From assembly GCA_016800925.1 (NCBI GenBank), contig JABCPU010000251.1, positions 36,398-100,397 on the forward strand: 64,000 nt of DNA, read 5' to 3'. Source of the stretch: Suillus spraguei (taxonomy: Eukaryota; Basidiomycota; Agaricomycetes; Boletales; Suillaceae). The stretch's first letter is position 1, and every line of letters starts with the position of its first letter. This document shows, one piece after another, positions 31,611 through 57,832 of this stretch. The notes beneath the pieces are model-generated. The model was not told the DNA's origin, made no database searches, and worked only from the letters and a program-made list of their open reading frames with translations. The translations under genes were made by a program, and so were the position numbers.

Positions 31611-31931
31611 GTTTACCATCTATTCAATAAATATTTTACTGCACCATACCTCAGCCCACCCATCTATGCAATAATATTTGCCTTACATCTCTCTTCAGCT
31701 CAGTTGTCTATAATATCCTACTCTACATATTACCCAGATGGGCCCACCCATCTCTGTCAGTGATGATATCCCCCTGGCCCATCTGTCAACATCAAGGATA
31801 TATATATCATTGGCATACATGGGCCCACCCGTCTCCATCAGAAATAATATTCCTCCTGGCCCATCCATCATCATTGAGGATATACACAACATCGGCCTAT
31901 GGTTCACTGACCCATCTTATACAGGATATTA

Positions 31932-32150
31932 CAGTGGCTCAAAAAACTGTCCGCATGTTTTGGCATTTTTCACTATCTATAATATTGTGTGAGAACAAAC
32001 AAATGCCTCAACAACATGCTTATACCACATTGTAGTATGGCTTCAGGGCTTTCATTTGAGCCCTACACCGTGGGAATCGGTGGAGATATGGTGGAGATAC
32101 AAGGCTCACAAAATGGTGACTCATGCGGACAGTTTTTTGACTCAAGTATT
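31932..32150 (+). repeat. Left terminal inverted repeat of the Tc1 element (IR/DR type)
   Basis: The outer end has CTCAAAAAACTGTCCGCATG; the inner end (about 32125-32147) carries the same motif again as CATGCGGACAGTTTTTTGA. Two motif copies per arm is the IR/DR layout of transposase binding sites. Confidence 0.75.
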
Positions 32151-32171
32151 TTACAGTAATAACCAGGTATT

Positions 32172-33188
32172 CTAGTATTTTGTATGACCTCCCTTGGCTT
32201 TAATTACTGCCTCTATCCTTCTAGGCATACTCTCAATTAATTTCTGGCAATCCTCAGCTGTGATCTTCCCCCATTCCACTGCTACTCTCTCCCAAAGCTC
32301 CCATACTCCTTTAGGGGGGTTTTCATAGGCTTGAAGCTTTTTCTTGAGTGTTCCCCAGAGATGTTCAATGACATTGACATCAGGAGACTGTGCTGGCCAG
32401 TCAAGAACATTGATGTTATGTTCTTCAAACCATTCCCTAGCTCTTCTGGATGTGTGCTTGGGATCATTATCCTGTTGGAAAATGATATCTTCTTCATCAA
32501 TCCCTGATTCTGCCAAGCTAGGCAGCAAGTGGTCATTTAAAATGTCCACATACTGCTCAGCATTCATCTTCCCCTCAACCTCAGCAAGCATTCCCACACC
32601 ATTCCATCCCATACAGCCCCATACCATTAAAGAACCTCCTCCAAACTTGACAGTCCCATTAACCTCTCTGTCTGTTAGGCCATCTCCCTTCTTTTTCCAT
32701 ACATACACCTTCCCATCTGACCCAATCCTATTGATTTTGGTCTCATCTGACCATATAACACGCTTCCAGTCCTCTACAGTCCAGTGTTGATGAGCTAAGG
32801 CAAAGGCTAGTCTTCTCTGCCTATGTTTGATGGAGAGAAGAGGCTTTTTCTTCTTTGTTACTGCCTTGAGATGAGCTGCCTTGAGAACATTCCTCACAGT
32901 TTGTGAAGAGACAGGGGTAGTGATGGTGGAATTGATATAATGGGTGGCTTGGACAGCATTATCAGCCTTTCCTGTAGTGATATGTTGGATAATAGCCCTT
33001 TTGTCAGTAGAGGTAAGCTTGGATGGACGTCCTCCACAAGAGTTTTCCTTGTCTGGGTGGCTTTCTTTGATGAACTTGGCCACAGTGGACTTGCATACTC
33101 CAGTTCTAGAGGAAATTTGGCGAGCAGAGAGGCCAGCATAAGACAGAGAGAGGATATTATCTCTTTGAGCAGAGGAGATGGCTTTCAT
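32172..33188 (-). CDS. Tc1-family DDE transposase (338 aa)
   Basis: I place the start at the ATG at 33188 (MKAISSAQRDNILSLS) because the 26 upstream codons are hydrophobic and atypical. N-terminal paired-type helix-turn-helix region (AGLSARQISSRTGVCKSTV), then GRPSKLT linker, and a catalytic core with WSDETKI, FQQDNDPKHTS and SPDVNVIEHLWG. There are 34 residues between the second Asp and the Glu, the DD34E spacing of Tc1. Length is normal for the family and there are no stops or frameshifts, so it may be active. It cuts and pastes the element at TA sites by binding its terminal repeats. Confidence 0.92.
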   Translation of the reverse strand: MKAISSAQRDNILSLSYAGLSARQISSRTGVCKSTVAKFIKESHPDKENSCGGRPSKLTSTDKRAIIQHITTGKADNAVQATHYINSTITTPVSSQTVRNVLKAAHLKAVTKKKKPLLSIKHRQRRLAFALAHQHWTVEDWKRVIWSDETKINRIGSDGKVYVWKKKGDGLTDREVNGTVKFGGGSLMVWGCMGWNGVGMLAEVEGKMNAEQYVDILNDHLLPSLAESGIDEEDIIFQQDNDPKHTSRRAREWFEEHNINVLDWPAQSPDVNVIEHLWGTLKKKLQAYENPPKGVWELWERVAVEWGKITAEDCQKLIESMPRRIEAVIKAKGGHTKY

Positions 33189-33344
33189 GGTGATTATGAC
33201 TATGATACATGAGATATTCTGGTTTATATAGTTAGATATAGTCATAAAATAACATAATGACACCACTTTATAATTTATATAATAGTGGCATGATTTTTAT
33301 GGTGTCATAAATAATGATTTATATAGTTTTAATATACACTCAAA

Positions 33345-33547
33345 AACTGTCCACATGAGTCATCATTTTATAAGCCTTATATCTCCACCATATCTCCGCC
33401 GATTCCCACGGTGTAGGGCTCAAATAAAAGCCCTGAAGCCATACTACAATGTGGTATAAGTATGTCCTTGAGGAATTTGTTCATTCTCACACAATATCAT
33501 AGATAGTGAAAAATGTCAAAACATGCGGACAGTTTTTTGAGCCACTG
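33345..33547 (-). repeat. Right terminal inverted repeat of the Tc1 element
   Basis: Mirror of 31932-32150 with a few differences; the inner motif reads CAAAAACTGTCCACATGAGT. Confidence 0.75.
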
Positions 33548-33598
33548 TATGTATGTTGGGTGGCCAGTATAATACAGAGTTTGTCACTGAAGGGGCTC

Positions 33599-35150: not shown

Positions 35151-35993
35151 TGTAAAGATATAACCTAGCCTGGGCTGTAGATAAAACCACGGCCTAAACT
35201 AGTATGTGAGTCTTGCGCTCCATCTAGTCTGCTTCACTTGCGAAACAAGAGCATTCGACCCTAAAGGGGGATGCCTGTTAGTATAGTTAAATTCAAGTCA
35301 AACCAGTGAGCGAAAGTAGCGTCGTAGTTAGCGGTAAGTTGCCGCAGTCAGCGATGATGCCACTGAAACTAGCGTCGTAGGTAGCAGTACTAGCGTTGTT
35401 GAAATAAAGTCAGTAATGGTAGCGTCGAGCAAGCGGTGATGAGCAATGATATCTGCAGTAGCGGTAAGGTTGTGAGTGGTGCAAAGAAACAGTAAAGAAG
35501 GCCACAGTACTTTCAGCGGTAAAGTATTGGTGTGTGAGAAGTTCAGTAAAAATAGCAATCAAGAGTCCAGCAGTATGCCAGCGGTAATGGTGAATGAGCA
35601 AAATCAATTAATGAGCGGTAAAGAACTTAAAAGGATAAGTCTACTACTGGGTGGTTCCAGAGCTAGACACTAATCTTGACCTATAGTACATGCAATGAGG
35701 TACAAATCAGGTACTGTATTGTGCAGGGTATGTGGTGTTTATATCTTAAATTGTATGTACTCAGAATGCTCTAGGCGAGATCAGTAGTGCTCAAGTACAG
35801 TAACCGTAGTGTGAGGTGACATGTAATAAGACTTGCCATAGAATCAGAACATATAACAAACAACGCACCAAATGGAGCTATGCAGATGCGGCAAGGACAT
35901 GGAAGGACATCGGTATGTGGAATGTGGTGCGGTAGTCGGTATGGTGTGTGGTAAGCGTGGGATGCTGCTGGAAATGCTAAAGGGGTAAGACAG
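35151..35993 (+). repeat. TGTAAAGATA repeat, first unit of a tandem pair
   Basis: Starts with the conserved ~115-nt head (CCTGGGCTGTAGATAAA ... GACCCTAAAGG), followed by a body rich in AGCGGTAA-like words and a short conserved CGKDM-encoding part. The second unit begins at 35994 (TGTAAAGATAC) and, after the KDZ insertion, continues at 53254. Inserted in the Plavaka gene; ACAA is found on both outer sides (35147-35150 and after about 54286). TG...CA ends suggest LTRs but no internal region is present. Confidence 0.55.
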
Positions 35994-36004
35994 TGTAAAG
36001 ATAC

Positions 36005-36095
36005 CACATATTACAGTGAACTATCTCCGTATTATACGAGTGAACGGACGTGCATAATATCCCGTATGATACGGGCCAGCGGACCATGGGCCCAT
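36005..36095 (+). repeat. Left terminal inverted repeat of the KDZ element
   Basis: Pairs with 53165-53246; matching blocks are CAGTGA, CTCCGTA, ATACG, CATAATATCCCGT and ACGGGCCAGCGG in order. Confidence 0.7.
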
Positions 36096-36099
36096 GGTA

Positions 36100-36500
36100 G
36101 AAATATCCTCGTTGATGACGGATGGGCCGGGAGGAATATTATTCCCGATGACAGCGGGTGGGCCCATGCAAGGAATATGTAGAGTAGATGAGTGGGCCGA
36201 TGTACATGAATATCCGGTAGACGGATGGGCCGAGGTAGTTGGATATCATGTAGATGGGTGTATCAAGGTAGATGTGTATCAAATAGACAGGTATGTGAAG
36301 GGTACTTGTTATCACATACACGGGTGGGCCCAGACACATATTAAATTAGACGGGTATTAGACGGGTGAGCCGAGAGTGTTATATAAATATTTATTAGACG
36401 GGTGGGCCAAGGGTGTTGTACAGTATATTATATTAGACAGGTGGGCCGAGGGTGGTATAAAATATAGACGGGTGGGCCCATGTGTATGATAATGGTAGAC
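36100..36500 (-). repeat. GGGTGGGCC subterminal repeats, left
   Basis: About ten copies of ACGGGTGGGCC with variants, 20-60 bp apart, the inverse complement of the right-hand GGCCCACCCGT array. Candidate transposase-binding sites. Confidence 0.55.
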
Positions 36501-36559
36501 ATGACGGAGCTGAGGGAGTTGCATATCATCTGAATCAGAGGAGGTAATAAATCACAGTT

Positions 36560-37046
36560 ACTGAGTTCCCGGAGCAGCAGGTGCTGTCTTGACATGGCCT
36601 TTTGTGACGCTTAGGTTGTCTTGTAGAATGTGGAAACTGGGGTGCGAGGCTTGTGTTGCCCTACAAGACACCCAGCTCCGACCCCCAAAAATCAGATGAA
36701 GCATACCAAGTTCCGAGTTCCGAGACCCGGGTCTCGACACATAATTCAGTCAATGAGAGACACCCAGTTCCGACCCCCGAAATTTGAGTGAAGCATACCA
36801 AGTTCCAGGAGCAGCAAGTGATGTCTTGAAATGGCCTTTATGGCGCTTAGGTTATCTTGTAGAACGTGGAAAGCGGGGTGCAAGGCTTGTGTTGCCCTAC
36901 AAGACACCCAGTTCTGACCCCCGAAAATCAGATGAAGCATACCAAGTTCCGAGTTCCGAGACCCGGGTCTCGACACATAATTCAGTCAATACGAGACACC
37001 CAGTTCCGACCCCCGAAATTTGAGTGAAGCATACCAAGTTCCGGAG
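36560..37046 (+). repeat. ~240-bp tandem duplication in the left subterminal region
   Basis: Two units (about 36560-36806 and 36807-37046) share GCTTAGGTTRTCTTGTAGAA, TTGTGTTGCCCTACAAGACA and a GAGACCCGGGTCTCGACAC palindrome. Confidence 0.6.
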
Positions 37047-37256
37047 TTCCGAACCCGGGTCTGGACAAATGAATATCAGATATCCAGCACACTTCCAATC
37101 ATCTGGTATTTCATTGAGCAATGGATGATAATACAGCTTTGAAAGCCAACATCATCCAAGGTTCCCTTATCTGATCCTCGCTATCTCCACCCCCTTTAAC
37201 ACCAAAGTCTGGACATCCAGCATTCAGCGTCTGATTTCCCAATATCAACTTGCAAC

Positions 37257-38563
37257 ATGAACACTTCTTCCATGTCCACTTGTGACATAAAAATCTGGCG
37301 CACTTGGGCCCTGGCCATCACTCATGAAGCAGGGGCATATACCAAACAAAAATTCAATGCAGAGAAGACTGGAGGAGAACCAGTTATACCTTCTCCGAAC
37401 CTGGACACTGATCTGGTGATGGCGTGCGATCGCTTGGCTGATGTACTCATAAAGGCATATAAAAATCCCAGTGGGTCTTCCTGCAGATGTTGAAAATGTG
37501 TTTGATCATTCAAATTCCTTCATGACAGTTAAGATACAGATTGATATTGCAAGATATAGCAAATTGATATCCCCAAAGAACACTGGGCATAATGAGGAGA
37601 AAGAGGAGAAGTTGCTTGAGAGGTGTCCTCCTGGCCATGAGGGCACAAAGGTGGTGGACAAACCTGCCACAATTATCGATGTTTCCGGTACCATCATCGC
37701 ATGGTACCTTCCGGACGCCCTGACCGAGACCACCCAGGTGCGTAATGTGTAGATTGTTACTCAATGGATATTGAATATCAAATGGTACCTACAGAAGGAA
37801 ATCAGGGCGGCCACCGATTTGCTGGGTCCAAGCCTCGAAAAAAGTGTAAAGGCTGATGGCAATTGGCGATATAATCAAGAATGGTTCAAACAGGGCTCGG
37901 AAAATGTTGGGTCAACTCCCGGATGCATCAATTTATCTCCGGCATGGTTTCAACAGGGCCACGAGGTAGGATGTGATGAGATGGTGATTTCTGGAGTCAA
38001 ACTCACCAATCCCATAGAATCTGTCAGATCCGGAGGTATCCGCATCATTGAAGGGACCCTCCTCCGAGAATATCCTGAAAGCTATTGCAAGGCCGGCAGC
38101 CATCGCATCGGCGGCACTCAGGGTCATGCATCCTCAGCAGTATTTTGCAGGGTTACGAGCCTTGTCACACCTCGGAGATAAGGCAGTGAGCAAGGAACTG
38201 CCACAGATGCCAGAGACCCTGCAGTACTGGGCATCCGTGTTTAACAGCCTCTCCATCATTTCCAATCGGGAAACCCCCAATCATCGAGACCATTTATCGA
38301 TTCCTGAATGCTTCGATATTCTCACCACCGTGGGGAACTATTCTAATGCTCGGATGAGCATGCCAAGCCTTCAGCTGGAATTCAGGTATGATTCCGGCTG
38401 TATGATTGCATTTTCGGGAAGAATTGTGAGACATGGTGTTGATGGAGGGGAAGGGGATCGGATTGCTTGGGCATGGTATATGAGGGATTCTGTGCACATT
38501 TATGCCGGGGTTCCCTCATGTGGATGGGCTATGGTCGAAGGCCACATACTAAGCACGGTGTGA
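37257..38563 (+). CDS. TET/JBP-like 2-oxoglutarate/Fe(II) dioxygenase (379 aa), KDZ cargo
   Basis: Exons 37257-37470, 37529-37737, 37795-37965 and 38018-38563 join in phase to 1140 nt with no internal stop. The C-terminal exon has the double-stranded beta-helix signature: H-x-D in NHRDHLS (His codon 38282, Asp 38288), the distal His in GRIVRHG (38432) and the 2-oxoglutarate-binding Arg in DRIAWAW (38459). Upstream blocks EGTKVVDKPATIIDVSG and NLSPAWFQQGHE are what I know from fungal TET/JBP proteins linked to KDZ transposons. Family members oxidise 5-methylcytosine (or thymine in JBP). Unlike the transposase of the same element, this gene is open throughout. Whether it modifies host or transposon DNA is inference. 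Confidence 0.8.
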
Positions 38564-38639
38564 AAGATCAAAGAAGTTGAAAGAGTTGTGACCCATGTTA
38601 GTAGCAACACACGAATACCATGTACCAATTAGAGCATCA

Positions 38640-39840
38640 ACAGTTCTGGAACTCAAGTCGGAAGTCGAGTTCCATGAATTGAGTCCCTAACTCTGTGTAT
38701 CTCGGGACTCTGGACTCGATCCTCGAAATTAGGGACTCAATGATCGATAGTCCGAATTCAGGCTTCACACTCGGGACTCAGGAAAGTGTGAGGCAACAGA
38801 CTTTGATCCACACATTGTGACTGCCGAACACCAAACACCGGCAGCCGGCACTCAGGACTCAGGACTGACACCAATGTGAAAAATATGAATTCACATATAG
38901 TGAGTGCCAAATCCCAAACTCAGGCAGCCAGAGCTCGGGACTCGGGACTCAGAACAATGTGAAAGATGTGAATTCACATATCATAAATGATGAACTCCGA
39001 ATCCTGGCAGCCGGCACTCGGGACTCGGGACTCAGAATAATGTGCAAGTCATTGATCCACACATGTTGAGGGCCGAACTCCGAACCCCGGCAGCCAGCGG
39101 TCGGGACTTGGGACTCAGAACAACGAGAAATATATTGATTCCTACATGTAAAGTGCCGAACGCCGAATGCCGAACCCTGTGAAAGATACTGATTCCCACA
39201 TATCAAGTGGCGAACCCGGAACCCCGGCAGCCAGAACTCGGGACTCGGGACACACAACATTGTGAATGATATTGATGCACACATGTTAAGTGCCGAATGC
39301 CGACTGGCGAGCCCCGGCACCCGGAACTCGGCACTTGGCACTCACAATAATCCACACATGTTGAGTGCCGAACCCCAAACTCCGGCAGCCGGGACTCGGG
39401 ACTCGGGACTCACAACATTGTGAATGATATGGATGCACACATGTGAAGTGCCGAACGCCGACTGCCGAGGCCCAGCACCCGGAACTCGGGACTCGGCACT
39501 CAGAATAATGTGAAAGTTATTGATCCACATATGTTGACTGCCGAGCCCCGCACTGTCGCACAGATATCTATTTCGTCTCGAACCTTGATTGCTGAACCCC
39601 AAACCATGAAATCCGGTAGTCCACAATTGTGGGGTTCGGGGTTCGGTACCTAAGATTCATGACTCGTCACTCAGAAATATGTGAGGCAATCTTGCCATTC
39701 GGAAGTCGAGTCCCATGAATTGAGTCCCAAACTCTAAGTACCATTGCACTCAGGCATTCGCCACTCAGCATTTGGGATTTGAGACTCTACATCCAGATCT
39801 TGACATCCAGTCCTCAAAATCCGGAACAAAATATTCGGGA
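38640..39840. repeat. Array of degenerate GACTCGGGACTC / GTGCCGAACCCC repeats
   Basis: Irregular repeats such as CAGCCGGCACTCGGGACTCG and TGTGAAAGATATTGATCCACA in mixed spacing separate the dioxygenase from the minus-strand genes. The minus-strand open frames here follow the repeat periodicity and are not genes. Confidence 0.6.
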
Positions 39841-39901
39841 GTCAAGACAATCATTTGGACGGAATAAAATATTTTACATCATGTATGAAATGAAGACCAT
39901 T

Positions 39902-40704
39902 CTAATCTAAACACAGTGAAGAGGACTCCACTCCCCTGCCTCTCTTCAATCTCTGTAGCATGTCAGTGTACATCTTCACCTCTGCCATCTTCTCATGGAT
40001 ACCCTCATCTTGCTCCTCCATCAATGCTACCAGGCGTGCTCGAATCATCTTAAGTCCCATCACTGATGGGCCTGATGAGTCATTTACCTCCTCAGGAAGA
40101 ACCAAGCCATCATCCTCAACTCCATTTACCATCCAATGCTGGTAGTGAACGACACAGGACCTCATGATCTGACCCCATTGCCATGGTTCATTCGGAATTT
40201 CGGTGTGTCCCATCCACCATGGAGTATCATAGCTGGGAATAATCCGGGATGGATGTCCCGGAGCTGCGACATCATCAAACTGACACAGGTGGGATGAAAA
40301 GATGTGGTCTGGAACAGTGTTCCAGGTGAGCATGGGATACAATGTCAGGACATGAGCGACGGGGCTTGGAACAACAGAAACGATGTTCCTTGCAGCTGAG
40401 TACTGCAGGAGTGGCGTAACAAATGTCTGTTGGAAATCTCAGCATTGCCCAAAAAAGTCAGCCGGTCATCCGGTCATCAGTCACATACATTGATTTCCCA
40501 TTGCACCCCGGCTTTAAAGTACATGATCCGGGCAGAAGAGGGAGGGTTGTTAGCAGCCTCCATCTGATATTGAGAGATACATGCGCGGATGCGCGATGCA
40601 GCCATATTCAAAGTACAAGAAATATCTTGAAGGTTCAGCTTCATGGGTTGCCAGTGATGTCCAGTATTTGGAGTGCCAGATGTGGATGCAGGAGTTTCAG
40701 GCAT
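39902..40704 (-). CDS. KDZ-associated protein of unknown function (246 aa)
   Basis: ATG at 40704; exons 40704-40489 and 40426-39902 with a GTATGT...CAG intron, phase 0, 741 nt, no stops. Distinct segments: LQDISCTLNMAASRIRACIS in exon 1, and WWMGHTEIPNEPWQWGQIM, VVHYQHWMVNG and a C-terminal helical coil (KMYTDMLQRLKRGRG) in exon 2. I recall similar WW-G-x-E-NEPW-W proteins beside KDZ transposases in other mushrooms. No catalytic motif seen. It follows the transposase on the same strand after about 170 bp. Confidence 0.6.
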
Positions 40705-40875
40705 GGCTAATGCAAGAGTGTGACGCTGGGAATGACACTGACAGATGGTAAAGAGCTGATGATATGAGTCACTGATGGATGGATTAGAAATTCAAACTCC
40801 GACATGGGCTGACCCGGACAATTCCCGGGACTCAATGTTTGGGTGTCAAATATGCGTTTCATCAGCAAAACAAAT

Positions 40876-43800
40876 TCATTCATGTGCACCATCGATCAAC
40901 GAGGGCTGCAGGTCTTGAAATGCTGCCTGTGCATCCTGAGCTAGTAAGGAATACATTTGAGACTGCCTTCCGGCATAGCATGCATGACCCGGAAGTTGTT
41001 TCAACAATGATTCCTGCATCCGGGCACCCCATGTGGTTGCCTTCCACAAGAAAAAGTTGCACGTCCAATCCATCTCTGATTGCACCAATGATATTTCTTC
41101 CATCCATCGATCCCGTAGTGCCTTTGCCCGAAGCCAATGAACTCGGTAAACTTGGGATGGGTCCTGTCAGCTCACCACGGAATATATCAAGCATGCCCGA
41201 ACTCACATTCCTCATTCCACGAATTTTCTGGACCCTCCATGTCGACTTCCACTGACCAGAACCAAGCGAGGGACTCATTTCGCTGACCTCGGGCGTTTGG
41301 ATCGCCAATGGCAGTGCTGATTTTGAGCTGCTCGCGAAGCAGGGGTTTGTATTTCTGAAGCTGGTCTGGCCCCGGCTCAAGTTGTATCATTTGCTTCCTG
41401 GTTTTTGTATATATACTGGCATGTAGGGATACTGCCTGCTGCACTGATGTCACCTGGGACCACGCTCGAGTTTTTAGGGCTTGAGATTTGGCTTGCCTAA
41501 CTGTTGTTCGGAACAGGATAGCCTTGTTGCACAAGTGAATGCGGAGATTGTGCAGGGCATCATTGGCCTGCCCTTCACGAAGCGACATCTCCAACGGAAT
41601 CAGATCCTCTGCCATACAGCGTCTGCAATGTTCAACCCCGAGGTTTGATGGCAATGGAATTATGGTGAGCTCAGGGGAGTTTGTCCATGCATCAGATGTC
41701 TCGGTGAAATCCACTGGGTCATCATCGATATCGTCAAGAATATCTATGTTCAAGTCGTCAGGATCGTCATCTGCATCAAATCCCTCTCCCAGATGCGTAA
41801 GAGCAGACCGAGTGAATTCATCTATCTGGCCTTGAATACGATCGCGTTGCTGGGCGATATCTAATCTCTGTGTCTCTGTCGATCGTCTTCCAATTCTGTG
41901 GACCTCGATGAGCAATGCAATTTGAGCCTCTTCAATTGCCAACCCAATGGATATCCATGTTGCCACAGATCTGCGAGAGGGTGCTGCATGACGGGCATTA
42001 CCCGCTTCTAGTAGTCTAAGCTCGATCTCCTTTTTGCTTGGTGCTAAGTGAAAAATGAATGCGGAGCTCCACGGAGACAAAGAATGTTAACTTACCCTTC
42101 TTGATATTGATTTCATATAAATCCATCGCCGCAGGATCCCTGATTCTCTTGAACTGAGCGACCATCTCGCTGGCTAACCATTGTGTCTTTAAATTGCCAG
42201 GTGCAGCTTCATCAAGTCTGTCGAAAGCCTTGCCACTTTCGGCGATGCCATTCTTCGCCAGCTTGTATTTCCGGCAAAGAGTCCTTTTCATGCGGATCAT
42301 CTTGCAGAAATTGGAATCGTTCATCTGATAATCAAGACATTCCTTTCGGTGCGGGGATGACATTCCCTGAGCGGCAGGGGAAATCAGGTTGAGACGCGCC
42401 CATAGGGTCTCCATGATCTCTCCATCAATCCGGCCAATGCCTTCAATAAAATTCGAAGCATATCGGACATAGCAACTGTCCTGATGTCCATGCACATGCC
42501 ACAAACCGATTCCAGGAATGATGGTCAGTTCCGGTACCATGTCAAGGTATTGGCTTCGATCCACCCGAACACGAAAGTGCTTGTTGTATTGACAATTAAT
42601 GTCATAGAAGGTGACAGCCCTGGTAATGCCTTCCATGTTGTGCTGGGCAGCCTCACAAATGGCGTAGTCCATGTTCATTTGTCTGCAAATGATGCATGGT
42701 CAACTAGTGAATGTCGATTGGCATGTTTGGCTTGCCTTTCCCCTTTCTGAAAATCAACCATCGAGTGAGGGACAAAGCACCCATGCCGGGCGCAGGCAAC
42801 TCCCCCGATTCCTGTGGACTCGAGCTTGTGCCGCGCCGCATTTGCTTGATTGACCGCCCGGTGATTGTTGCAGCTCGATTTTTCCACCGTGTCAGCAGCC
42901 TCCGCAAGATGCATGTTATACCTGTCCTTTCCGACCATGAATCCAAGCCCATCTGAAAGCCAAACTTCATCGAGGGGATTAATGGGATGCAGGTGTTCAG
43001 CTTTGAAATTTCCGTCCATCACAAATGACCAGGTGTATTTCCAGCTTGGAGTTCTTATCATCGCCGAGTTCACTTCGGTATTGAACATGACTCACTCATC
43101 AAGTGATTCATCCCCTGACAAAGATACATTAATCCCAGGCTGAGGACATGCTGGGCAAAATAATGCAAGATCTCCTGCGTTCGGGATGTCAGAACGATGG
43201 CCATAGCCATGCCATTTCATGGTCTTCAACTGCCTCCACTGTCAAGCGACTCTCATGAGCTCTCTGTATCGATCCTTGCCACGGCCTGTGTCAACATCAT
43301 GTCCTTTAGATGAAGCACAAATAGCATTACCGGAACAAGGTGTGGAAACATGCTCGAGGTCATTCGCCGGAGCTTACTGTAATAGTTCATTGCGGAGGTG
43401 CCGCATTCAAGGTTGTCCAATAGAAAATCATCCAGCACTCCAAAGGTAAACACGGTCTTCGGCCTGTTAAATGATGCAGGGAAAAATCCATGCTGAAACA
43501 TTTGAATGTCCGGACTCATGGCATTTGGACAATCGCAGCAGCGAACCTCGAGGCGGTGAACTCCGGACTTGTCAACGATGACCATGGTGTTTTCCTTCGG
43601 CTGGAACTCAGGTCCCGACACAGACGGAAGATCTTCGGGCTCAAGCTGGTCTTCAGGTTCATCTCCTTCGAACAAATCCCACCTATCTGTGAGCACCGGA
43701 CATTGCTTGCCATCATGCCCGAGGTGTATGGTGAGTCCCACATGAGCGAGACAACTCCGCTCGAAGAATTGACCATTCCATTGACTGATCCAGTGGAAAG

Positions 43801-44308
43801 GATTGCAACGATGTTGACTCCTGCAACAGCCCGTGCAATAGAGAGGCTCGCCAAGACAATCTTGACATTTGTAGACCCCATCCTGGTGGCAGATGATGCA
43901 TCTCCTGTCTTCTGGTGGAGCTTCTCGATCCAGGAGGTGATGCAGATATGATTCCTGCCTTGGCAGCCATTGCCTGAGGTAGTCATTTTGACTCTGCATT
44001 TTTTATATTGAGCTATAGTTTGAATGACACTCCAACATTTAACATGAACTTGCCATGGTTTTTGGGAGTTGCAATGGCTCAAATGAGCCTTGGTCTTGCT
44101 CGTAAGTATTGTCAGGAAAGTCATCCCAAGGAGGTGGTGCCTGAACAGGCTGAAGTGTTGGTGATTCTGGGGGAGAGGGAGGCATGGACCTGTAGGCTCG
44201 TCGTCTTGTGCTTGCAAGTGGGACCTTGACCCAAATCTTTCTACCCTTGCTGCCCCTTGCTTCTACCCTGTGGGATTTTTGCAATGGGGTGCATCTACCT
44301 ATCTTCAT
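40876..44308 (-). pseudogene. CxC2 cysteine-cluster KDZ transposase, with in-frame stops
   Basis: Proposed exons: 44308-44054, 43993 to about 43337, then about 43290-42736, 42682-42096, 42043 to about 41198, and about 41168-40876. The CxC2 zinc cluster lies early (CQDCLGEPLYCTGCCRSQH ... GHDGKQCP); the KDZ core follows (VMDGNFKAEHLH, FYDINCQYNKH, GLWHVHGHQDSCYVRYA, GRIDGEIMETLWA, GMSSPHRKE) and ends with DPNARGQRNESLAWFWS and VHWLRAKALRDRW. TGA codons interrupt it at 43244-43242 and 43094-43092, and the junction near 41197 is one base out of phase. Two introns use GC donors (44053, 42735). The product would cut the element out and reinsert it; this copy is probably inactive unless the stops are bypassed. 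Confidence 0.85.
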
Positions 44309-44545
44309 CTTATTTTATAATGCTAATGTTGCAAGCAAAGCATCTGCTCAGGTGGAATGAATTTTTATTACATTGTGGTGTCATACAGTCCTGCCGACTC
44401 ATTACAAATTTATGTCCATTTATGGCTTCGGGACCAATATAGCTCAATTAAGCTACTGTTAGGCTTTTGTCAAAGATCAACTTCTGTCAATTCGTTCATT
44501 CTTCCACCTTGCTTATCCTCAGCCCATTCTGCAATTTGATTCACC

Positions 44546-46380
44546 ATGGCAAGGACGGGTCATTCCACTCACTTGACTTCCAGCAGAAATAGGGCACGTC
44601 AACCACAGACACAGAAGCTCACGGAAAACGAAATTTCGGAGTTGAAGAACTACCTTCCTGAGTGGACCACGGCCAAAAGGGGTGAGAAGCGAGGGGTTTT
44701 CACTGCAATTGCCAGGGCAGCCAGGTTGTTTGCTCCTAAAGTCGACCAAGGACAATGGAAAAAGAGGAAGCAGGTGATGCGTCTTCGTTGTGTTGAAAAA
44801 CTACAATTTTAACATCTTATTCTTCCATCAACTCTCAGATGTATAACACTTGGTTGTTCAACAACAAGAAAAGGAAGGAAAGGAAGGACATGATAAAGTA
44901 TGGGAGGAAATGGACGCCTAGGATGGTGGTCTACCAGCAGAAGCGCGAAGAGGTGCTAAAGAGGATTGAGGACGAGTCCGGGGCAAAGCCGGGAGATCCC
45001 GGTATGTTCAAACATTATCAGGGGGCTGTGAAGAGAGTCATGGCTGAATTGGACGATGACGAGTTGGAGAAGGCAAAAGAAACAGCGGAAGAATGGTCAA
45101 ACAGCTTTCCTCCTCCGGAGATACAAGCAGAAGTTGCTCATAAGAAGGGACCAGCATATATGGAGCACTTTTCGAAAGAGATGTGGAGGCAATGCGGGAT
45201 GAGAGTTTTTGTGTTGTCAGCTTGGAAGAATGAACAGGGAGAGGTTCTGTTCGGGATGTAAGTCAATTGTGTCCATCATCGCCGATCTTCAATCTCAATA
45301 TATGTGTGCAGGCATGATGATAATGAGGCATTAGGAGATGGGGACAGCTTCATGAAGATGAAGGACTGGGAGGACATTGAGCCAGTATGGCAGCAGTATG
45401 CCCAGGAACAGTTCGGTGAGTGTTTGAACTTTGGATGCAAGAATGAATTCGTTGATCATCACAATGATAGGTGCCGGGGCACAGGACGGAGGATGACAGG
45501 TCAAGGGAGGTCGCAAAAGAGTCAGAAAACCAGCTTTGGAACTCGACACAGATGGAAATGAGATGCCGTTGCTTCCAGACATCACAGAAACAAAACTTGA
45601 GGAGAAGAAAGCCATAGTCAGGGCGTTTCTTACATCGCACTACAGTGAGTCTTTCGTGGCAACATCTGAGCTGTTGCTGAATGCGTGGACACAGGAATAT
45701 GTTCCGGGAATGACAAGGCTGTCGTGCCATGGAGTGCCCTCGTACAAAGTCAGGATGACTTTGTGGCAAGGAAGTATCTTCCGGCAGATATTGACCTGAA
45801 GGAGCCTTCGAAGTTGCAAAGCTGGGACACAACAGCCTTGCTCAATTTCTGGTATGCTCAGCAGGAAACAGGAAAAGATTCAACATTTCTGTTCAAAGCA
45901 TGGAAGAACAAGGATGGGGACATGGTACCATCTGTGGTATCCGGCAAGTCGCCATCGCGTCTGACTCGTCAAGTGAGAATGCAGAAGAGTGGAACTCTCC
46001 GAAGGCCCTGGGATCCATCAACCGAAGCCGAGAGTGATACCGACAGTGAAACTCATGACAAGGAGGATGACATTGATGATGACTCGGCTGATGGTCGATC
46101 CCCACTGAAGAAACCCAGACAAATAGCACACCCATCTTCAGCACCCAACGAGACAGAAGTTCCATGTTCAATGCCGGAGCCTCGCCCGGCCAGGCCGGCC
46201 AAGGCAGGTGCACTTTTGACATCACGGATGGGCGACCTCCTGGCCGGGATCACTGAGGAAGTGGAAGAGAGGAACGCATCGCCGGAACCAAGGAGTATAC
46301 AGGGCAAGAAAGCTGTCATTGAACCATCCGCAAGGACCACCCGGAGTAAGTCTCAAAAGCCGGTAGAGAGTACACTTTGA
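44546..46380 (+). pseudogene. KDZ-associated accessory gene, one premature stop
   Basis: Exons 44546-44773, 44839-45257, 45312-45415, 45471-45644 and 45695-46380 join in phase to 537 codons with one internal TGA (45494-45496), most simply from CGA. Recognisable blocks: QMYNTWLFNNKKRKERKD, AYMEHFSKEMWRQCGMRVF, KKAIVRAFLTSHY and DKAVVPWSALVQSQDDFVAR, in the order seen in a protein that accompanies KDZ transposases in other Agaricomycetes (from memory). The C-terminus is acidic, then basic and disordered. No enzymatic motif. It is divergent from the transposase, about 240 bp apart, so a shared promoter is possible. Confidence 0.65.
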
Positions 46381-46489
46381 GTAACCAGGGCAAGGGGAAG
46401 GAAATAATGTACATATACCAAACTGCCCCCATGTTTACCACATTTTCATCATTTGTCACACTTCTTAAAACACAGTGTCCCACTTCCAA

Positions 46490-46890
46490 AATGTTGAATC
46501 CTAAGCACCGAGTTCTGGACGTATCCTGATCACCGAGTTCTGGACGACTCCCGATCACCGAGGTCCGGCACCCAAGTATCAATCATTGGTAGTTGGTATT
46601 AGAGATTAGGGTTTGTGCATCATCTAAAATACATTGGAACTGTCATTGATATACATGAAAAATTCAGTGGTTCACATGATTTAAGTATGTGAATGAAAAT
46701 CCAAATATCACGAAACCCGATCACCGAGTTCCGGATGAATCCCAATCACCGAGCTCCGGACCCCGGGAATCAATAATTGGCTGTTGGAATGGGACAATTG
46801 GGTGTGTGCATCATCTAAAATCAATTGGAAATGTCATTGTTATACATGAAAAATTCAGTGGTGAACATGATGTAAGTATGTGAATGAATA
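46490..46890. repeat. Short GATCACCGAG repeats between accessory genes
   Basis: Copies of GATCACCGAGTTCYGGA and two copies of a ~170-bp segment (ATCATCTAAAATNCATTGGAA ... GTATGTGAATGAA) at about 46616-46703 and 46808-46895. Confidence 0.5.
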
Positions 46891-46899
46891 TCCAAATAT

Positions 46900-47916
46900 T
46901 TACATATGGGGTTGATCATCACACTTTTCAATGAGGGTATCTAATACAAGCAGCAATTCAGAGCTCATCTGTTTGGCCCTTTGCAACCTCCGGAGGTCCA
47001 TATCAGCTCTTCTGAGTTTGTCGGATGTGTCAGCCCAAGCCACTCGTAATGGTCGGTCGGCCTCGAGGAGTTGATGTATGGTAGGCTCCGGAAGATGGCC
47101 ATGACGCTGTTGGTAATGGTCCAGGCGATCCAGAATTGATTCAACTTCAAGAAAATTAGCAGAATGATACATGATGAACAATTAAATACTCACATTCTGT
47201 TTGATCATATGACCCTAGGGGCATGAACTCCCTAAGCATGGCACGCAGGTCTTCATTGCTGAGTTCCGGTATGGGGGACTGACATTTAGGAGGTGTTGCA
47301 TGTGCTTGGGACATCACATCAACAATAAAAATGAGATTGTATGAGTGAACTCACCTGGAATTGCTATTCCTGGGATAGCCAGAGCATCAGTCTCAACATC
47401 AGCACATTCCGGTGCTTCATCACAATCAATAAGATCATCATCAGGCCCTAGGTACAAGTCCGGATCGTTGAACAAAGGAAGTTCCTCAGGCTGAGCCGGG
47501 CATAAATGATCTGGATGGATTGAATGAACATCCACAGTTGGACTATCTAAAGGTGAAGTGAGAAACCTACCAGAAACTGCATCCAAGACATCCGGAACAC
47601 CTGATGACCCAGAATCATAGTCGATCTCATCATCCGGCCCAAGGTATACATCTTCACTTGGATCTAATAAATCTCCAGTCAATTGTAAGATATACTCAAA
47701 GCAACACATACCTGATGAAATCCGGGACTCAGTCTCATCATCCGGCCCAAGGTATACATCATCCAGTGCATCTGGTCCATCTCTGGTCAATTGAGAGCTG
47801 GACTGAAAGCACAACATACCTAGTGAAATCTGGGACTCGGTTGAGTCATCCACATCCATTGAGTTGTATTCAGTGACCGGAGGTTCATAAAATCTGACTG
47901 CTGGTTGAGATCTCAT
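46900..47916 (-). CDS. KDZ-associated acidic protein with LGPDDE repeats (305 aa)
   Basis: Exons 47916-47355, 47304-47194 and 47144-46900 join in phase to 918 nt without stops. The first exon carries three copies of a VYLGPDDE-like motif spaced about 35-80 residues and is strongly acidic; the last encodes a helical region (ESILDRLDHYQQRHGH ... LRRLQRAKQMSSELL), probably a coiled coil. No known domain. Intact, in contrast to the transposase. Confidence 0.6.
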
Positions 47917-48135
47917 GATGTCTGATCAACTGATCAAACTGATTGATAACTGATAACTTCGAAGTTCAACACATGGCTGGCAATGGCCGAAAGTTGAACC
48001 ACGACCAAACAAAGACAAACAATCAACGCTTATCAAGATTGTCCTTCAATTGTCTGGTTTCTTTTGAAAATTCATCCAAGTGATCACAGATTTCAAACTT
48101 ATCTCAAGCTTTTCACATCTTTCAAGTCAATCCAA

Positions 48136-50274
48136 ATGTCTACTTCAGTTGAAACCTCTTTGGCCAGTCTCAAGGCAACCACTGCTCAGATTGTGGGCAT
48201 CATTGCCGGGGCTCGGCTCATGCCTGCCGGCACTGGCCAAGCCCACCTTGCTCTGACAGCACAAGTCACTAATCTTGTGGTAAGTACCATTCATGTGTTA
48301 ATTTTACTTTTGGTTTTTCTAAGATCTGGGTAGGCTGAGATTGTCCGGGAGCATGAGAAAGGGCCTTACATGCCTGGCATCATTGCATCCTGCTCCAAGG
48401 AGTTGATGAGAGTCAGGTCCATGACTCCCCGGGTGTGGCCCAACTGGCACAGCATCGGTCATGACGACCCCCGGGTGTTGAAACACTCCTGGCGCAGCAA
48501 GATTCGCACCTGGGAGGCGTTAGGTGACTATTCAGGTGATCTCCCTGTCATGCCTAACCCTTCCATTGGCCCAATCACTGTGGACCTTCCCTCCCCACCC
48601 ATCATCGCCAGCAATGTCGCTGGTTCTTCCACCCACGCCACCTCCGAGCTCCGGGACAAAGGAAAAGGTAAGGCGGTTGTTGCTGACCCAGAGCCGGAGG
48701 TGGAAGGGAGCAGGAAGAGGAAGTCCCCCATGATGTCTGGACACTCTTCCTCACCTCCGAAGTCGGCCAAGAAGGGTCGCAAGCGGGTCAAAGCAACTCG
48801 CCATGTCAAGCAGAATGTGCTTGTGGAGTCGGAAGATGATGAAGACACAATTGTTCAGGTATGTCGTCCAGCTCATTGTTTTCATTCTCTCAATTTTCTT
48901 TAGCCTATTTCGAGTGGAGTGCCGGCGCTCAACGTTCCCCGGCCTTCCACAATTGGTGTAGGGACGCCTCATTCCCCTTGTTCACCACATTCCCCAAAGA
49001 AGCAATTGTTTGGTCCTGCTTCAGTAAGTAATATTTAGTTGTCCGGCACTTGGAAAAATGCTTATGTATCATCAGCTCATTGCCGGCAGTCCACCCAAGG
49101 TGATGGTGAGTCATCATTCTTTGTCCGGACCTCCCGCCTGTACTTACCCATTGTCAGGCCACCTCTGGCAGTCGTCCAGAGGTTGTCGAGACCCCCCAGG
49201 CAATGTCCAGCACTCCGGCTCAGGAACCTGCAGTCATGGATACAGGTGATATTCTCATTCCCGGCCCAATGAGTACTCTAATGAATTCCAATGAGTCCAT
49301 CAACTAATGGAACCCACAGAACAACCCCTGCCATTATTGCACCCAGGAGAAGTGGCCCTGCGCCACTCGGTTGGACAGGAGGACCCGTGCCCCATGTTTG
49401 TCGTGCATCCGCTGCGCCACCAAGAAGATCAAATGTGTCCCAGCATCCATGGGATCTCCGCCAAAACATATTCGAGGGAAGTCAACCACCCGGCAGGCTC
49501 GCTCCAGGACACCTTCCAGAGCTCCCTCCAATGCGCCGGCTGCCTCGCAGTCCAAAGCCCGAACTCGCAGTCAATCTCGTGGCCCCTCCGGCACACCAGC
49601 TGTCCCTGCTGTTACCACACCCAAGGCACAGTCCCGTGGGCGCAGCAAGACAATCACTGCCCCCAAGACACCTGCACCTGCATCAGCTTGTGAGTCACCC
49701 CAATTGTCTATGACCATCTGACCTTATCTCTCACTTAGCTATTCCGTCTTCAAGCGCCCCAGTGCCTCGTCCGGCACTCGATGTGCCCATGTCGGATCTC
49801 CATTCCATGGCAATTGCGATTTGGGATGGTGCCGCTCGAATTGCTCTTCTTGAGGCTCGTGTGGCGGAGCAGGATGGTAAGATTGATACCCTGCAACGCC
49901 TCCATGAGGGCCTTCGTCGCAAAGTCATGGACCGGCACCCTTCATTTCCACTTCCCGACTCTCCTGTCAATGCAACCTTTTTGCTTGATCAATCCGTCCC
50001 CCTGGCCATCTCACCCCTCCCATCTGCACTTGCTCCCCTCATTGACTTGGATATGGCAGGAATGGAGCCTCCATCTCCGAAAGTCCAGCCTGCATCTATC
50101 ATTGAGGGTCTCATATTTGAGCTCAGCCAGATTCAGCCTGAGGGTCCACAAACGTCCGGCGAACTTGTGGACCCAGATGATCCGGGCAACCTTGTCCCAG
50201 AATATGATTCTGATGATATGGATGTTGAGGTGAAGGTTGAACCCTCTGCTGATGAGGGTGAAATGGCTACATAA
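48136..50274 (+). CDS. KDZ-associated cysteine-rich, coiled-coil protein (about 611 aa)
   Basis: Exons 48136-48279, 48334-48858, 48904-49023, 49076-49105, 49158-49268, 49320-49689 and 49739-50274; total 1836 nt, phases consistent. Segments: N-terminal helical part, basic patch (KGRKRVKATRHVK), Ser/Pro linkers, a Cys-rich cluster (CHYC, CLSCIRCATKKIKC) that looks zinc-binding, a coiled coil (IALLEARVAEQDGKIDTLQR), and an acidic tail (DDMDVEVKVEPSADE). The intron at 49269-49319 begins ATGAGT instead of GTGAGT; if it is retained, TAA at 49305 truncates the protein to about 309 residues. The old copy at 28905-30500 keeps GTGAGT. Function unknown; nucleic-acid binding is plausible. Confidence 0.6.
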
Positions 50275-50439
50275 TTGTAGGTTCATAGATGTATGTATAT
50301 ACAATGTTTGAATGAATGTCAGTGCTGGATGCCAAGTCCGGACATCCGGAACTGGACAATGGAGATTCACAATTGATATTTCGCGACTTCCGGATATCCG
50401 GCTACCTGAAACACAACACACAATTTAAAGAATTTGAAA

Positions 50440-52500
50440 CATCTCTGTCGAGTTACCTTGTGCCAGGTGCCGGGTCACATTGTGAAACATATCATTCCAT
50501 ATATCTTAAGTGCCGAACCCCGGACCCCAGGACCCTGGAGTTGGGACTCATCACCATGTGACAGATATCGATCCACATATTTGATGTGCTGAACCCCGAA
50601 CTCCGGCATTCGGGAGTTAGAACAATATGAGGCAATACAAAGATATTGATTTACACATGTTCAGTGCCGAACCCCGAACTCCGGCACCTGGCACTCGGGA
50701 CTCGGGCCTTGGAACTTATAACAATGTGAAAGATGTCAATGCACATTTTCTATCACTGACCCCCGAACCCCGGCACCCAGGAGTGAGAAACATGTGAGGC
50801 AATACCAAGATATTGATTTACACGTGGGGAGTGCCGAACCCCGAACTCCGGCACCCGGCAGTTGGGAATCTGGACTCGGGACTCATAACCATGTGAAAGA
50901 TATTGATCCACATATTTAACCACCCAACCCCGAACCCCAGCACCCGGGAGTGAGAACAATGTGAGTCAATACAAAGATATTGATGTACACATGTTGAATG
51001 CCGAACCCCGAACTCCGGCACCCGGCACTCGGGACTCGGGACGTGGTACTCATAACACTGAGACAGATATCGATCCATATATTTTCACACCGAACCCCAA
51101 ACCCCCACCACCCTGAGTTAGAACAATGTGAGGCAATACAAAGTTGAGTCCCAAATCACGATCACTGAGTGCTGGGTTACCATGTGAGGCAATACCATGA
51201 TATTGATTTACACAAGTTGAGTGCCGAACCCCGAGCTCCGGCACCCGGGAGTTAGCACAATGTGAGGCAACACCATGATATTTATTTACACAAGTTGAGT
51301 GCCGAACACCGAGTGCCGGGTGCCGGAGCTCGGGGTTCGGCACTCCACATGTGTAAATCAATATTATGGTATTGCCTCACATTGTGCTAACTCCTGGGTG
51401 CCGGAGCTCGGGGTTCGGCAGTCAACATGTGTAAATCAATATTATGGTATTGCCTCACATTGTGCTAACTCCCGGGTGCCGGAGCTCGGTGTTCGGCACT
51501 CAACATGTGTAAATCAATATCATGGTATTGCCTCACATTGTGCTAGCTCCTGGGTGCCGGAGCTCGGGGTTCGGCACTCAACTTGTGTAACTCAATATCA
51601 TGGTATTGCCTCACATTGTGCTAGCTCCCGGGTGCCGGAGCTCGGGGTTCGGCACTCAACATGTGTAAATCAATATTATGGTATTGCCTCACATTGTGCT
51701 AACTCCCGGGTGCCGGAGCTCAGGGTTCGGCAGTCAACACAATGTGAAAGTCCTCGATCCACATATTGTATGTGCCGAACCCCGAACTCCGGCACCCGGC
51801 ACTCGGGACTCGGGACTTCCGAGCTCCGGCACCCGGCACCCGGCACTCGGCACTCAGGACTTGGTACTCATAATGTGAAAGATCTTGAGCAACATATTGT
51901 CAGTGCTGATCCCTGAACCCCGGCACCCAGCACTCGCCACTCGGGACTCAGAACAATGTGAGGCAATAGACACCTATTGATCCACACATTCTAAGTGCCG
52001 AACTCCAAACTCCAAAATCTGGTAGTCTACTATTTAGGGGTTCGCAGTTCGGTACTCTGGCTTTTGCACTTGAGACCGAAAACAATGTGAGGCAATAAAA
52101 TGACTTTGATCCACACATTTTTAGTAGATATCTTTTTCATCTCAAATCTTGAATCTCGAGTGCCGAACCCCAAATCCTGAAATCTGGTAGTCTACAATTT
52201 CGGGGTTCGGTCCTCGGGACTCAGACACATGTCAGGCAACAACAAAACTTTGATCCACACATTTTTGGTAGATGTCTGTTTTGTCTCGAATCTCGAGTTT
52301 CTAGTTTCTAGTTTCAGTACTCTGCACCTGCACCCGGCACTCAGCACTAGATGACTCCACACATGGACTTTAAATCTTTCACCTTGTGTGTTGTGTTTCG
52401 GGTGTCCGGGTATCTGGAATTCAGGAAATCTCTAGTTTGCATCTCCAGTTTCAAGTTCCTGGATTCGGGACTTGGTACCCGGCACCCGGCACCTCAATTA
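50440..52500. repeat. Right subterminal repeat array of the KDZ element
   Basis: Repeats built from GTGCCGAACCCCGAACTCCG, CACCCGGCACTCGGGACTCG and TGTGAGGCAATACAAAGATA words in both orientations. No supported gene. Confidence 0.65.
51320..51735 (+). repeat. 78-bp tandem repeats
   Basis: Five full units and a partial sixth: GTGCCGGAGCTCGGGGTTCG, then CACTCAACATGTGTAAATCA, then TATTGCCTCACATTGTGCTA. The same unit occurs in opposite orientation just upstream (51170-51300), giving a palindromic junction near 51310. Because 78 is a multiple of three, a repetitive frame stays open across it. Confidence 0.85.
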
Positions 52501-52654
52501 TCGATGAATGTCAGACATGATAAATTCAGGTTTTTGTGCTTCAGGGTTTAGATTTTGGTGGTTGATGGTAGGTATATGCACTCATAGGGTGCATGTATCC
52601 TATGTGTTTGATTCTCTGGTGGCTACATCAGCTGTACGTCTTTATGATACATAT

Positions 52655-53165
52655 CTAGGCCCACCCGTATATGTAATATATTTTACCTCGGCCCACCCGT
52701 CTATGTAAAATTCCCCCACATCGGCCCACCCGTCTATGCAATAAATATTTTACTGCACCCTCGGCCCACCCGTCTATGTAATACACCCCACGTCGGCCCA
52801 CCCGTATATGTAATATTCTCTCACCTTGGCCCACCCGTATATGTAATATTCTCTCACCTCGGCCCACCCGTATATGTAATATTCTCTTACCTCGGCCCAC
52901 CCGTCTATGCAATAATATTTGCCTTGCATCTCTCTTCAGCCCAGCTGTCTATAATATCCTACTCTACATACTACCCAGATGAGCCCACCCATCTCTGTCG
53001 GGGATTATATCCCCCTGGCCCATCCGTCAACATTAGAAATCATGTTTCCCTCGGCCCACCCATCTCTCCCGAAAATATAAGTCTCCCGGCCCACCCGTCT
53101 CCATCGGAAATAATATTCCCCCTGGCCCATCCGTCAACATCGAGGATATACATAACCTCGGCCCA
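52655..53165 (+). repeat. GGCCCACCCGT subterminal repeats, right
   Basis: Eight near-regular copies of CGGCCCACCCGTCTATGTAA between 52659 and 52920, then looser copies to 53165; inverse of the left array. Candidate transposase-binding sites. Confidence 0.65.
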
Positions 53166-53246
53166 CCATCCGCTGGCCCGTCTTTGACGGGATATTATGT
53201 GGGTCGGGTGACCCGTATAGTACGGAGTTTGTCACTGAAGGGGCTC
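53165..53246 (-). repeat. Right terminal inverted repeat of the KDZ element
   Basis: Ends TTTGTCACTGAAGGGGCTC, followed by the AAGATAC duplication. The old relic has the identical last 19 bases at 33580-33598. Confidence 0.75.
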
Positions 53247-53253
53247 AAGATAC

Positions 53254-54117
53254 AACCTAACCTGGGCTGTAGATAAACTACGGCCTAAGCTAGTATGTGA
53301 GTCTTGCGCTCCGTCTAGTCTGCTTCACTTGTGAGAACAAGAGTGTTTGACCCTAAAGGGGGATGCCTATTAGTATGGTCAAGTTCAAGTCAAACTTATG
53401 TGCAAAAGAAGCATTGTGGTCAGCGGTAAGTTGCTGTGGTCAGCTATGATGCCGCTGGAACTAGCGTTGTGTGTAGCGGTGCTACTGTGGTCGAGATATA
53501 GTCAGAAACAGTTGCGTCAAGTGAGCGATGTCAAGCGATAATATCAGCGGTAGCAGTAAGGTTGTGAGCGGTGCAAGGAAACAGTAAAGAAGTCCGCAGT
53601 ACTTTCAGTGGTAAAGTAGTGGTGCATGAGAAGTTCAGTCAAAATAACAGTCAAAAGTCCAGTGGTATGCCAGCGGTAACAGAACGAGCATGATAGATTT
53701 AACGAGCGATAAGGAAACTTTAAAGACTAAGTCCACTACTGGGTAGATCCAGAGCTGGACAATAATCCTGACCTATAGTATGTGCAATGGTGTAAAATCA
53801 GGTACTGTATCATGTGGGGTATGCGATGCTTATATCCTAAATCATATGTACTTGGAATACTCTAGGTGAGATCAGTAGCGCTGGAGTGTAGTAACCGCCA
53901 TAAGTAAACATAGCGTGAGGCACTGCAGCACGAGGCAACATGTAATAAGGCTTGCTGTGGAATCAGTGATAATGAACATAAAACAAACGATGCACCAAAT
54001 AGAGCTATGTGGATGCGGCAAGGACATGGGAGGACATCAGTATGTGGAACATGGTGCAGCAGTCAGTATGGTGTGCGGTAAATGTGGGATGCCACCAGTA
54101 ATGCTAAAGGGGTAAGA
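53254..54117 (+). repeat. TGTAAAGATA repeat, second unit (after the KDZ insertion)
   Basis: Continues the unit that began at 35994 and parallels 35151-35993 along its length (for example GATGCCTATTAGTATGGTCA and CAGGTACTGTATCATG). Confidence 0.6.
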
Positions 54118-54293
54118 CGGCCATGAACAAGTGATAACTCCTATAGACGTGAGACGAGTGTCAAAAGATGGGGTTTTAAGCCCAGCACCAATATGTTTGT
54201 TACAATGGCCATGGACAAGTGGTAACTCCTATAGACATGAGACGAGTGTCAAAAGATAGGGTTTTAAGGCCAGCACCAATATGTTCGCTACAA
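54117..54293 (+). repeat. Two tandem copies of an ~88-bp unit
   Basis: Unit contains ATAACTCCTATAGACRTGAG and TTTTAAGSCCAGCACCAATA; copies at 54117-54205 and 54206-54293. It closes the TGTAAAGATA repeat (…GCTACA) before Plavaka sequence resumes. Confidence 0.65.
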
Positions 54294-57296: not shown

Positions 57297-57359
57297 AGGA
57301 TGCAATAAACAGTAGCTGACAAAACCAGATGAGTTCACGCCTTTGGCGAAGTGTGCACC

Positions 57360-57832
57360 TGTTACGAACTGGGGTGGCATCACCAGCGACAGTGCAAAGA
57401 CACAGACGATCTGCTGGGAAATTCTACAATGTCCAGAAGAGAACAAGGTGAAAGTACAAGGAATGCGTTCCGAGTACTATCAAGGGTTCGGCCTCAAAGA
57501 CAAGTCTAAGAGGTTCTACGAGAATAGAGACTAAGGCTAAGGAGTGCTTAGACTTAGAGACGATTCAAGACGACTTAGGTTGGAGACCTAAGCGAAGAAT
57601 GTTCCAGGTAAAACCCAGTAAGATTAAAGTAAAGAATCTACTACAAGTACAACGTGCTTAAATAGACCAATATGTGCGCACGGACCAAGAGAGGCGTGGG
57701 AAAGTAAGTGTGTATTCAAATAAGGAAGGCAACTATAGTACAAATGCGTCGAGCATATGAGTCAGAGTCGTGTTACGTAATATATAGGGTAAATGAAGTA
57801 GAAAATGAATAGGGGCACATACGACTGTAACA
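57360..57832 (-). repeat. 3' LTR of the inverted Gypsy copy
   Basis: 473 bp, TGTTACAG at 57832 to CGTAACA at 57360 on the minus strand. It is closer to the solo LTR at 28096 than to the LTRs of the complete copy (for example CCCCAGTTCGTAACA). Confidence 0.88.

Follow-up and report, generated by a model that had tools for sequence, protein, structure and literature searches.

A KDZ transposon with a TET/JBP dioxygenase gene in Suillus spraguei and the CpG decay of its copies

What does a DNA dioxygenase gene do for a transposon that carries it, and does it spare that transposon the mutational cost of cytosine methylation? The question is raised by a 64,000-nucleotide stretch of the Suillus spraguei genome (contig JABCPU010000251.1 of assembly GCA_016800925.1; hereafter the window, with positions counted from its first letter), which holds a complete 17.2-kb KDZ-type DNA transposon at 36005-53246 and, between its ends, a gene for a TET/JBP dioxygenase. 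This one genome offers dozens of near-identical TET copies together with older decayed ones, as well as KDZ families that have no nearby TET hit and retrotransposons that lack TET, a mix of TET-bearing and TET-less elements that lets the mutation pattern test the idea of protection. A first, small test of this kind opposes lasting protection in cis, and signs of selection argue that the TET gene does something. We consider it fairly likely that the element is a TET-carrying KDZ transposon of the Kyakuja type caught in a recent burst in Suillus, with a TET function that is selected but transient and probably exerted in trans.

A complete transposon with an open TET/JBP gene

The element lies between two copies of the 7-bp target-site duplication AAGATAC (35998-36004 and 53247-53253, neither assigned to a strand), starts with CACATATTACAGTGAACT on the left and finishes with TCACTGAAGGGGCTC on the right. 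Its left end (36005-36164, forward strand) comprises nine unpaired bases, CACATATTA, and an inverted-repeat arm from 36020, and its right end (53088-53246, forward strand) an arm running to 53232 followed by the closing bases ...GGGGCTC. The arms (36020-36164 and 53088-53232, about 145 bp) are 78% complementary, while the outermost 9 bp, CACATATTA on the left and GAGCCCCTT on the right when read inwards, are not inverted copies of each other, and the termini read 5'-CAC...CTC-3'. A first-pass annotation, made from the letters of the window, had drawn the element at exactly these coordinates and had pointed out the 7-bp duplication, which indeed stands on both sides; the terminal inverted repeats that it described exist as inverted arms but are subterminal. 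The outer bases of the window copy recur unchanged at 20 of 20 left-end and 30 of 30 right-end loci taken from the same genome, and this copy is consistent with itself in that ends and duplication agree.

The same annotation had proposed a CxC2/KDZ transposase and a four-exon gene with an H-x-D...H...R signature, and both are confirmed. The transposase gene, of several exons with approximate limits at 41187-44002 on the reverse strand, is recognised by Pfam through a CxC2 cysteine cluster (43253-44002, reverse strand; PF18803, 91.4 bits) placed ahead of the KDZ transposase domain (42016-42699, reverse strand; PF18758, 91.5 bits against a cut-off of 26.6). The dioxygenase gene (37257-38563, forward strand) has exons at 37257-37470, 37529-37737, 37795-37965 and 38018-38563, separated by introns of 58, 57 and 52 bp, which when joined in the majority row of copies form one open frame of 379 aa, and the window's own row is free of stops. 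A public protein model (P0001, representing 44 member sequences) places the junctions of exons 1 to 3 identically and lacks two pieces of exon 4. The profile search against TET/JBP that had been suggested for 37257-38563 is positive, with Tet_JBP (PF12851) reaching 54.7 bits on the fourth exon against a cut-off of 34.9.

Residues H287-x-D289 and H337 of the iron triad are kept in the window copy, as are D298 and R346, the last of which we take to be the 2-oxoglutarate-binding Arg. The catalytic domain matches CcTET of Coprinopsis cinerea in the PDB (7vpn/8jkk, E 5e-23; a further structure is 7w5p), with which these residues align; D298 is the counterpart of its D337, so that HxD, H, R and the Asp337 equivalent are alike, whereas the position of Gly331 is Ser in the Suillus enzyme. 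By this homology the carried enzyme probably oxidises methylated DNA.

Relationship to known elements

Iyer et al. are said to have found in 2014 that TET genes expanded together with KDZ transposons in basidiomycetes, in the company of extra accessory genes; the present work goes beyond that association in recording complete ends, duplications, copy numbers and decay for one genome. Membership among KDZ elements with TET cargo is secure and the kind has already been published, as the text of Kojima 2025 (PMC12730594) describes TET+ Kyakuja elements with 7-bp duplications in Agaricomycetes including Boletales, which agrees with the first-pass statement that KDZ transposons and TET/JBP genes occur together in fungi. 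Likeness to these elements extends to the KDZ transposase, an internal TET/JBP gene of AG type, the 7-bp duplications and a 5' end in CA. The two Laccaria families Kyakuja-1_LB and Kyakuja-2_LB are described there with CA..TG ends and without terminal inverted repeats, whereas the Suillus element ends in CTC rather than TG and has its subterminal inverted repeat. We infer the name Kyakuja from the 7-bp duplication (AAGATAC and four further pairs, below), the AG-like type of the TET and the order to which the host belongs; Suillus is not named in the main text of Kojima 2025, and a Suillus family may stand in its Table S1. Zisupton and Dileera belong to the same KDZ superfamily but make duplications of 8 bp (PMC12730594), not 7. 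For the TET cargo, Kojima 2025 proposes an escape from silencing, which in that paper's own words is not experimentally validated.

Copies in the genome

Copy counts in the genome are lower bounds throughout. The left end occurs in at least 40 places including that in the window (the best 40 of 529 candidates), 36 of them identical over 97 bp; the best 40 of 217 candidate DNA copies of the TET gene are all 99-100% identical; and at least 150 matches to PF12851 exceed the cut-off (150 of 197 candidates scored). A catalytic TET domain follows within 4 kb, on the expected side, at 36 of the 40 left ends, that of the window among them. In contig C716 the domain lies about 1.6 kb further inward than usual, and in C224 it was recognised from the contig's own DNA and contains a stop and an Arg to Gln change. 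The expectation that copies with the same ends always carry the dioxygenase therefore holds for these 36 and breaks down at two: C747 has the same left end and has lost the catalytic exon by deletion, and C191 (L084:42-556) has a left end 93% identical over 529 bp with no match to the element in the following 3.4 kb, possibly a TET-less derivative or another family with the same ends. Two more are partly visible, C1227 with the 5' part of the TET gene and no catalytic hit among those listed, and C309, which has the start of the gene and is cut by the contig end.

Seven pairs of ends on the same contig with both flanks readable, of ten tried (C594, C528, C540, C324, C341, C858 and C678, the last three with a repeated transposase flank), have no 7-mer in common. 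That other copies lack the 7-bp duplication was nevertheless rejected, as an all-against-all comparison of 29 left with 27 right flanks yielded four 7-bp matches where 0.05 are expected (C933-C533, C912-C1036, C822-C1221 and C337-C897), with none at 5 or 8 bp and one at 6. Since all four join different contigs, the assembly appears to misjoin or break many copies of this repeat. Five of the 30 right-end loci (L063, L065, L071, L073 and L080) run on into transposase sequence from 43212, and the contig ends 2305 bp past the right end in C905, C678, C676 and C493, as well as in C341 judging by positions and flank. Spreading nested composites were considered and set aside, the common 2305-bp stop probably pointing to an assembly-graph end instead. 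In C858 the outer end was not found in the 301-bp stretch read, and family sequence also occurs in the right flank of L059 and the left flanks of L003 and L019.

CpG decay in TET-bearing copies

If the cargo kept its own element unmethylated, TET-bearing copies should lose CpG sites more slowly than elements without it. We compared 31 other TET loci (the 30 with the best PF12851 scores and L083) and found CpG transitions at 463 of 2815 bases against other substitutions at 483 of 40140, a 13.7-fold excess, which becomes 21.8-fold relative to non-CpG C-to-T changes alone. Taken over 37061-38759 the ratio stands at 15.0; 108 of the 114 CpG bases are changed in at least one copy. As the values for the 5', domain and 3' parts are 16.7, 15.4 and 10.9, the excess does not come from choosing loci by their Pfam score. 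The mutated share ranges from 0.143 to 0.167 across TCG, GCG, ACG and CCG without clear strand bias, and a sequence preference like that of repeat-induced point mutation was rejected given that TCG is not preferred.

The decay reaches the enzyme's own key codons. Arg346 has gone from CGG to CAG in 11 of the 31 copies and Asp298 from GAT to AAT in 9, both CpG changes and never in the same copy, such that the key Arg or Asp is lost in 20 of 31; some of these changes may be inherited rather than independent. The codons of H287 and D289 contain no CpG.

As a control we used the paired long terminal repeats (LTRs) of single Gypsy elements without TET, taken as identical at insertion. Seven of ten pairs were usable (three without a match were dropped, and two have alignments of just 264 and 348 bp), giving CpG transitions at 22 of 221 bases against other changes at 30 of 2768, a 9.2-fold excess (5.0-16.0), with CpG defined by the majority row for the TET element and by either LTR for Gypsy. 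The CpG share of all changes does not separate the two (Fisher p 0.39, uncorrected for site numbers). Ratios between Gypsy copies, about 1.3-4.6, were left out as a control because changes from before insertion are mixed in. CpG loss in TET-bearing copies, with its 14- to 15-fold excess, is thus no lower than in Gypsy LTR pairs. The enzyme does not look like a lasting shield, and the first-pass proposal of a cargo that protects its element against the cost of methylation finds no support here in the form given.

CpG signatures have been reported in transposons of Microbotryum, Puccinia and Melampsora (Amselem et al. 2015, PMC4352252), and in Laccaria and Coprinopsis 5-hydroxymethylcytosine (5hmC) and 5-formylcytosine (5fC) are reported as similarly enriched in retrotransposons and DNA transposons (PMC8889193). 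Searches of the literature, mainly that outside subscription papers, turned up no measurement of how CpG decays in transposon copies that carry TET; the novelty here lies in putting CpG decay to a quantitative test, whose result argues against lasting self-protection.

Selection on the TET gene and competing explanations

A transient or trans-acting anti-silencing role is our best reading of these results. The transposase would move the whole 17.2-kb unit with a 7-bp duplication, movement by this enzyme being the conjectural part beside the observed ends and duplications. By homology to CcTET, the AG-type TET most likely oxidises 5-methylcytosine (5mC) at CpG sites on element copies, and the gene would be kept by helping the lineage while it is expressed and moving, for example by opening silenced copies in trans. 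Settled copies are not spared by it: the mutation pattern shows their CpG loss continuing, even into the enzyme's own codons.

Purifying selection on the older TET substitutions is suggested by changes outside CpG sites, for which the ratio of non-synonymous to synonymous rates (dN/dS) was computed with approximate site weights. Changes private to one copy comprise 29 synonymous and 74 non-synonymous or stop changes (dN/dS ~0.84), those common to the most diverged copies, L033 and L040, 21 and 20 (dN/dS ~0.31), and those exclusive to these two copies 12 and 9 (dN/dS 0.25); shared differ from private changes with Fisher p 0.012 and exclusive from private with p 0.020. Such a contrast is what one expects of a gene maintained as its lineage moves and left to decay freely after insertion.

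Several points weigh against this reading. The selection test is based on few sites, and the activity of the enzyme is something we infer. The Poisson 95% interval of the 13.7-fold CpG excess (12.0-15.5) is too narrow because the 31 copies share history, and this sample, mostly best-scoring PF12851 loci, is enriched in diverged copies; the Gypsy control is small and blind to a genome-wide effect in trans that would lower its decay too. Conservation is uneven among 18 aligned TET proteins, chosen from 120 listed and including 17 that belong to other species of Suillus: HxD is kept in all 18, the second His in 13, Asp in 13 with Asn in 5, and Arg in only 6 with Gln in 5. The absence of CpG from the H287 and D289 codons, together with these losses of Arg, His and Asp, weakens conservation as evidence. 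CpG decay here turns the Asp into Asn and the Arg into Gln, so many of the 18 relatives may be decayed copies, and some missing residues may be gaps of public gene models.

KDZ families also seem able to multiply without a TET gene close by. Equal-score KDZ hits fall into groups of 10 (with one more nearly the same), 6, 5 and 3 places, grouped by score alone with 150 of 493 KDZ candidates scored. Within 10 kb of these 25 places there is no TET hit among those listed (47 TET candidates being unscored); the nearest is at 11 and 15 kb for two and at 79 and 246 kb for two others, with none on the contig for 21. Amplification may therefore not require TET, at any rate in cis.

These families speak for the possibility that the TET gene is a passenger, acquired a single time and carried since without benefit. 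Loss of key residues or of the catalytic exon in many copies fits such a history as well, and the low counts for Arg, His and Asp in the protein alignment led us to raise slightly the weight given to it and to lower slightly that of a selected, transient function. We still regard a passenger as unlikely, however, in view of the dN/dS of ~0.3 for older changes, the universal HxD, and the catalytic domain that follows 36 of 40 left ends.

A selected function might also act on a substrate other than 5mC, namely N6-methyladenine (6mA) or RNA. CcTET also oxidises 6mA, the two residues involved are described as basically conserved in Kyakuja enzymes (PMC12730594), and the window copy has Asp at the Asp337 position and, at that of Gly331, a Ser also known from other Kyakuja enzymes. 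The same Asp is reported as essential for activity on 5mC (PMC12730594), however, and its presence here, with a mutation pattern in this genome that points to 5mC at CpG, makes us judge 6mA or RNA as the useful substrate to be improbable.

Lasting self-protection, by which the cargo would keep its own copies unmethylated and spare their CpG sites, draws on the landscape of the window. In 1-kb bins the observed-to-expected CpG ratio is 0.43-0.82 within the element and 0.08-0.27 at 29-35 and 54-57 kb, so that this young copy is indeed richer in CpG than its decayed neighbours. The neighbours' decay, which the first-pass annotation had offered as the reason why such cargo would help, is real; as an argument for benefit it is weakened, since part of a decayed neighbour belongs to the same family, which that annotation had not noticed. 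This is the right-hand part of an old copy (28894-31931, forward strand), ending at a Tc1-like insertion, in which, over three aligned pieces, 62 of the 151 bases that lie in CpG in the intact copy are now TpG or CpA, against the same transitions at 68 of 818 other C/G bases. Gypsy elements, moreover, are likewise CpG-rich (0.78-1.10; 0.78-1.04 in the bins of two copies at 19-26 and 58-64 kb), so youth explains the CpG richness of the TET copies, and with decay equal to that of Gypsy LTR pairs we hold lasting self-protection to be very improbable.

A still more speculative idea, to which we give little credence, is that element-borne TET leaves CpG mutation undiminished and may even raise it, as 5hmC, 5fC and 5-carboxylcytosine are repaired or deaminated to TpG or CpA. 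Were this true, transient expression would be bought with the faster death of settled copies, the TET gene included. Least credible of all, in our estimate, is that the TET gene serves the host, for example in regulated demethylation, and spreads by way of the transposon: the 150 or more PF12851 matches in one genome and the reported ties of oxidised cytosines to gene expression and transposable-element silencing in L. bicolor and C. cinerea (PMC8889193) would suit it, but the copies are young, near-identical, tied to one element and in many cases broken.

Accessory genes, internal repeats and surroundings

Two further genes lie to the right of the transposase gene, both on the forward strand with several exons in approximate models and without a Pfam match over the cut-off in the pieces tested. 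Gene A (44546-46380) has relatives across many Suillus species (126 hits, 120 listed); in an alignment of 21, the first shares 45-92% identity with the other 20. The HMG-like label reportedly given by Iyer et al. 2014 is not claimed for gene A here. Gene B (48136-50274) contains a cysteine-rich cluster, CHYC...CLSCIRC...C. Internal tandem arrays, not assigned to a strand, occupy 38803-39509 and, on the right side, 50530-51739.

The flanks of the element (35155-35991 and 53247-54118) run in direct orientation and agree at 79% over some 850 bp, as if the insertion had struck an old tandem duplication. The Tc1-like element at 31930-33549 is bounded by inverted ends of 208 bp (93%) and contains an open transposase frame of 374 aa in a stretch with an observed-to-expected CpG ratio of about 0.08, an apparently intact gene that is almost free of CpG. 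The two Gypsy elements of the window (18801-26435 and 57346-63997) lie in opposite orientation and are 86% identical over 6.7 kb; the LTRs of the first are 98.5% identical, and five of their seven differences are CpG transitions. Further to the left, 7715-11387 contains open frames of 374, 273 and 564 aa without a Pfam match, and the segments 1-1478 and 10186-11647 are 67% alike.

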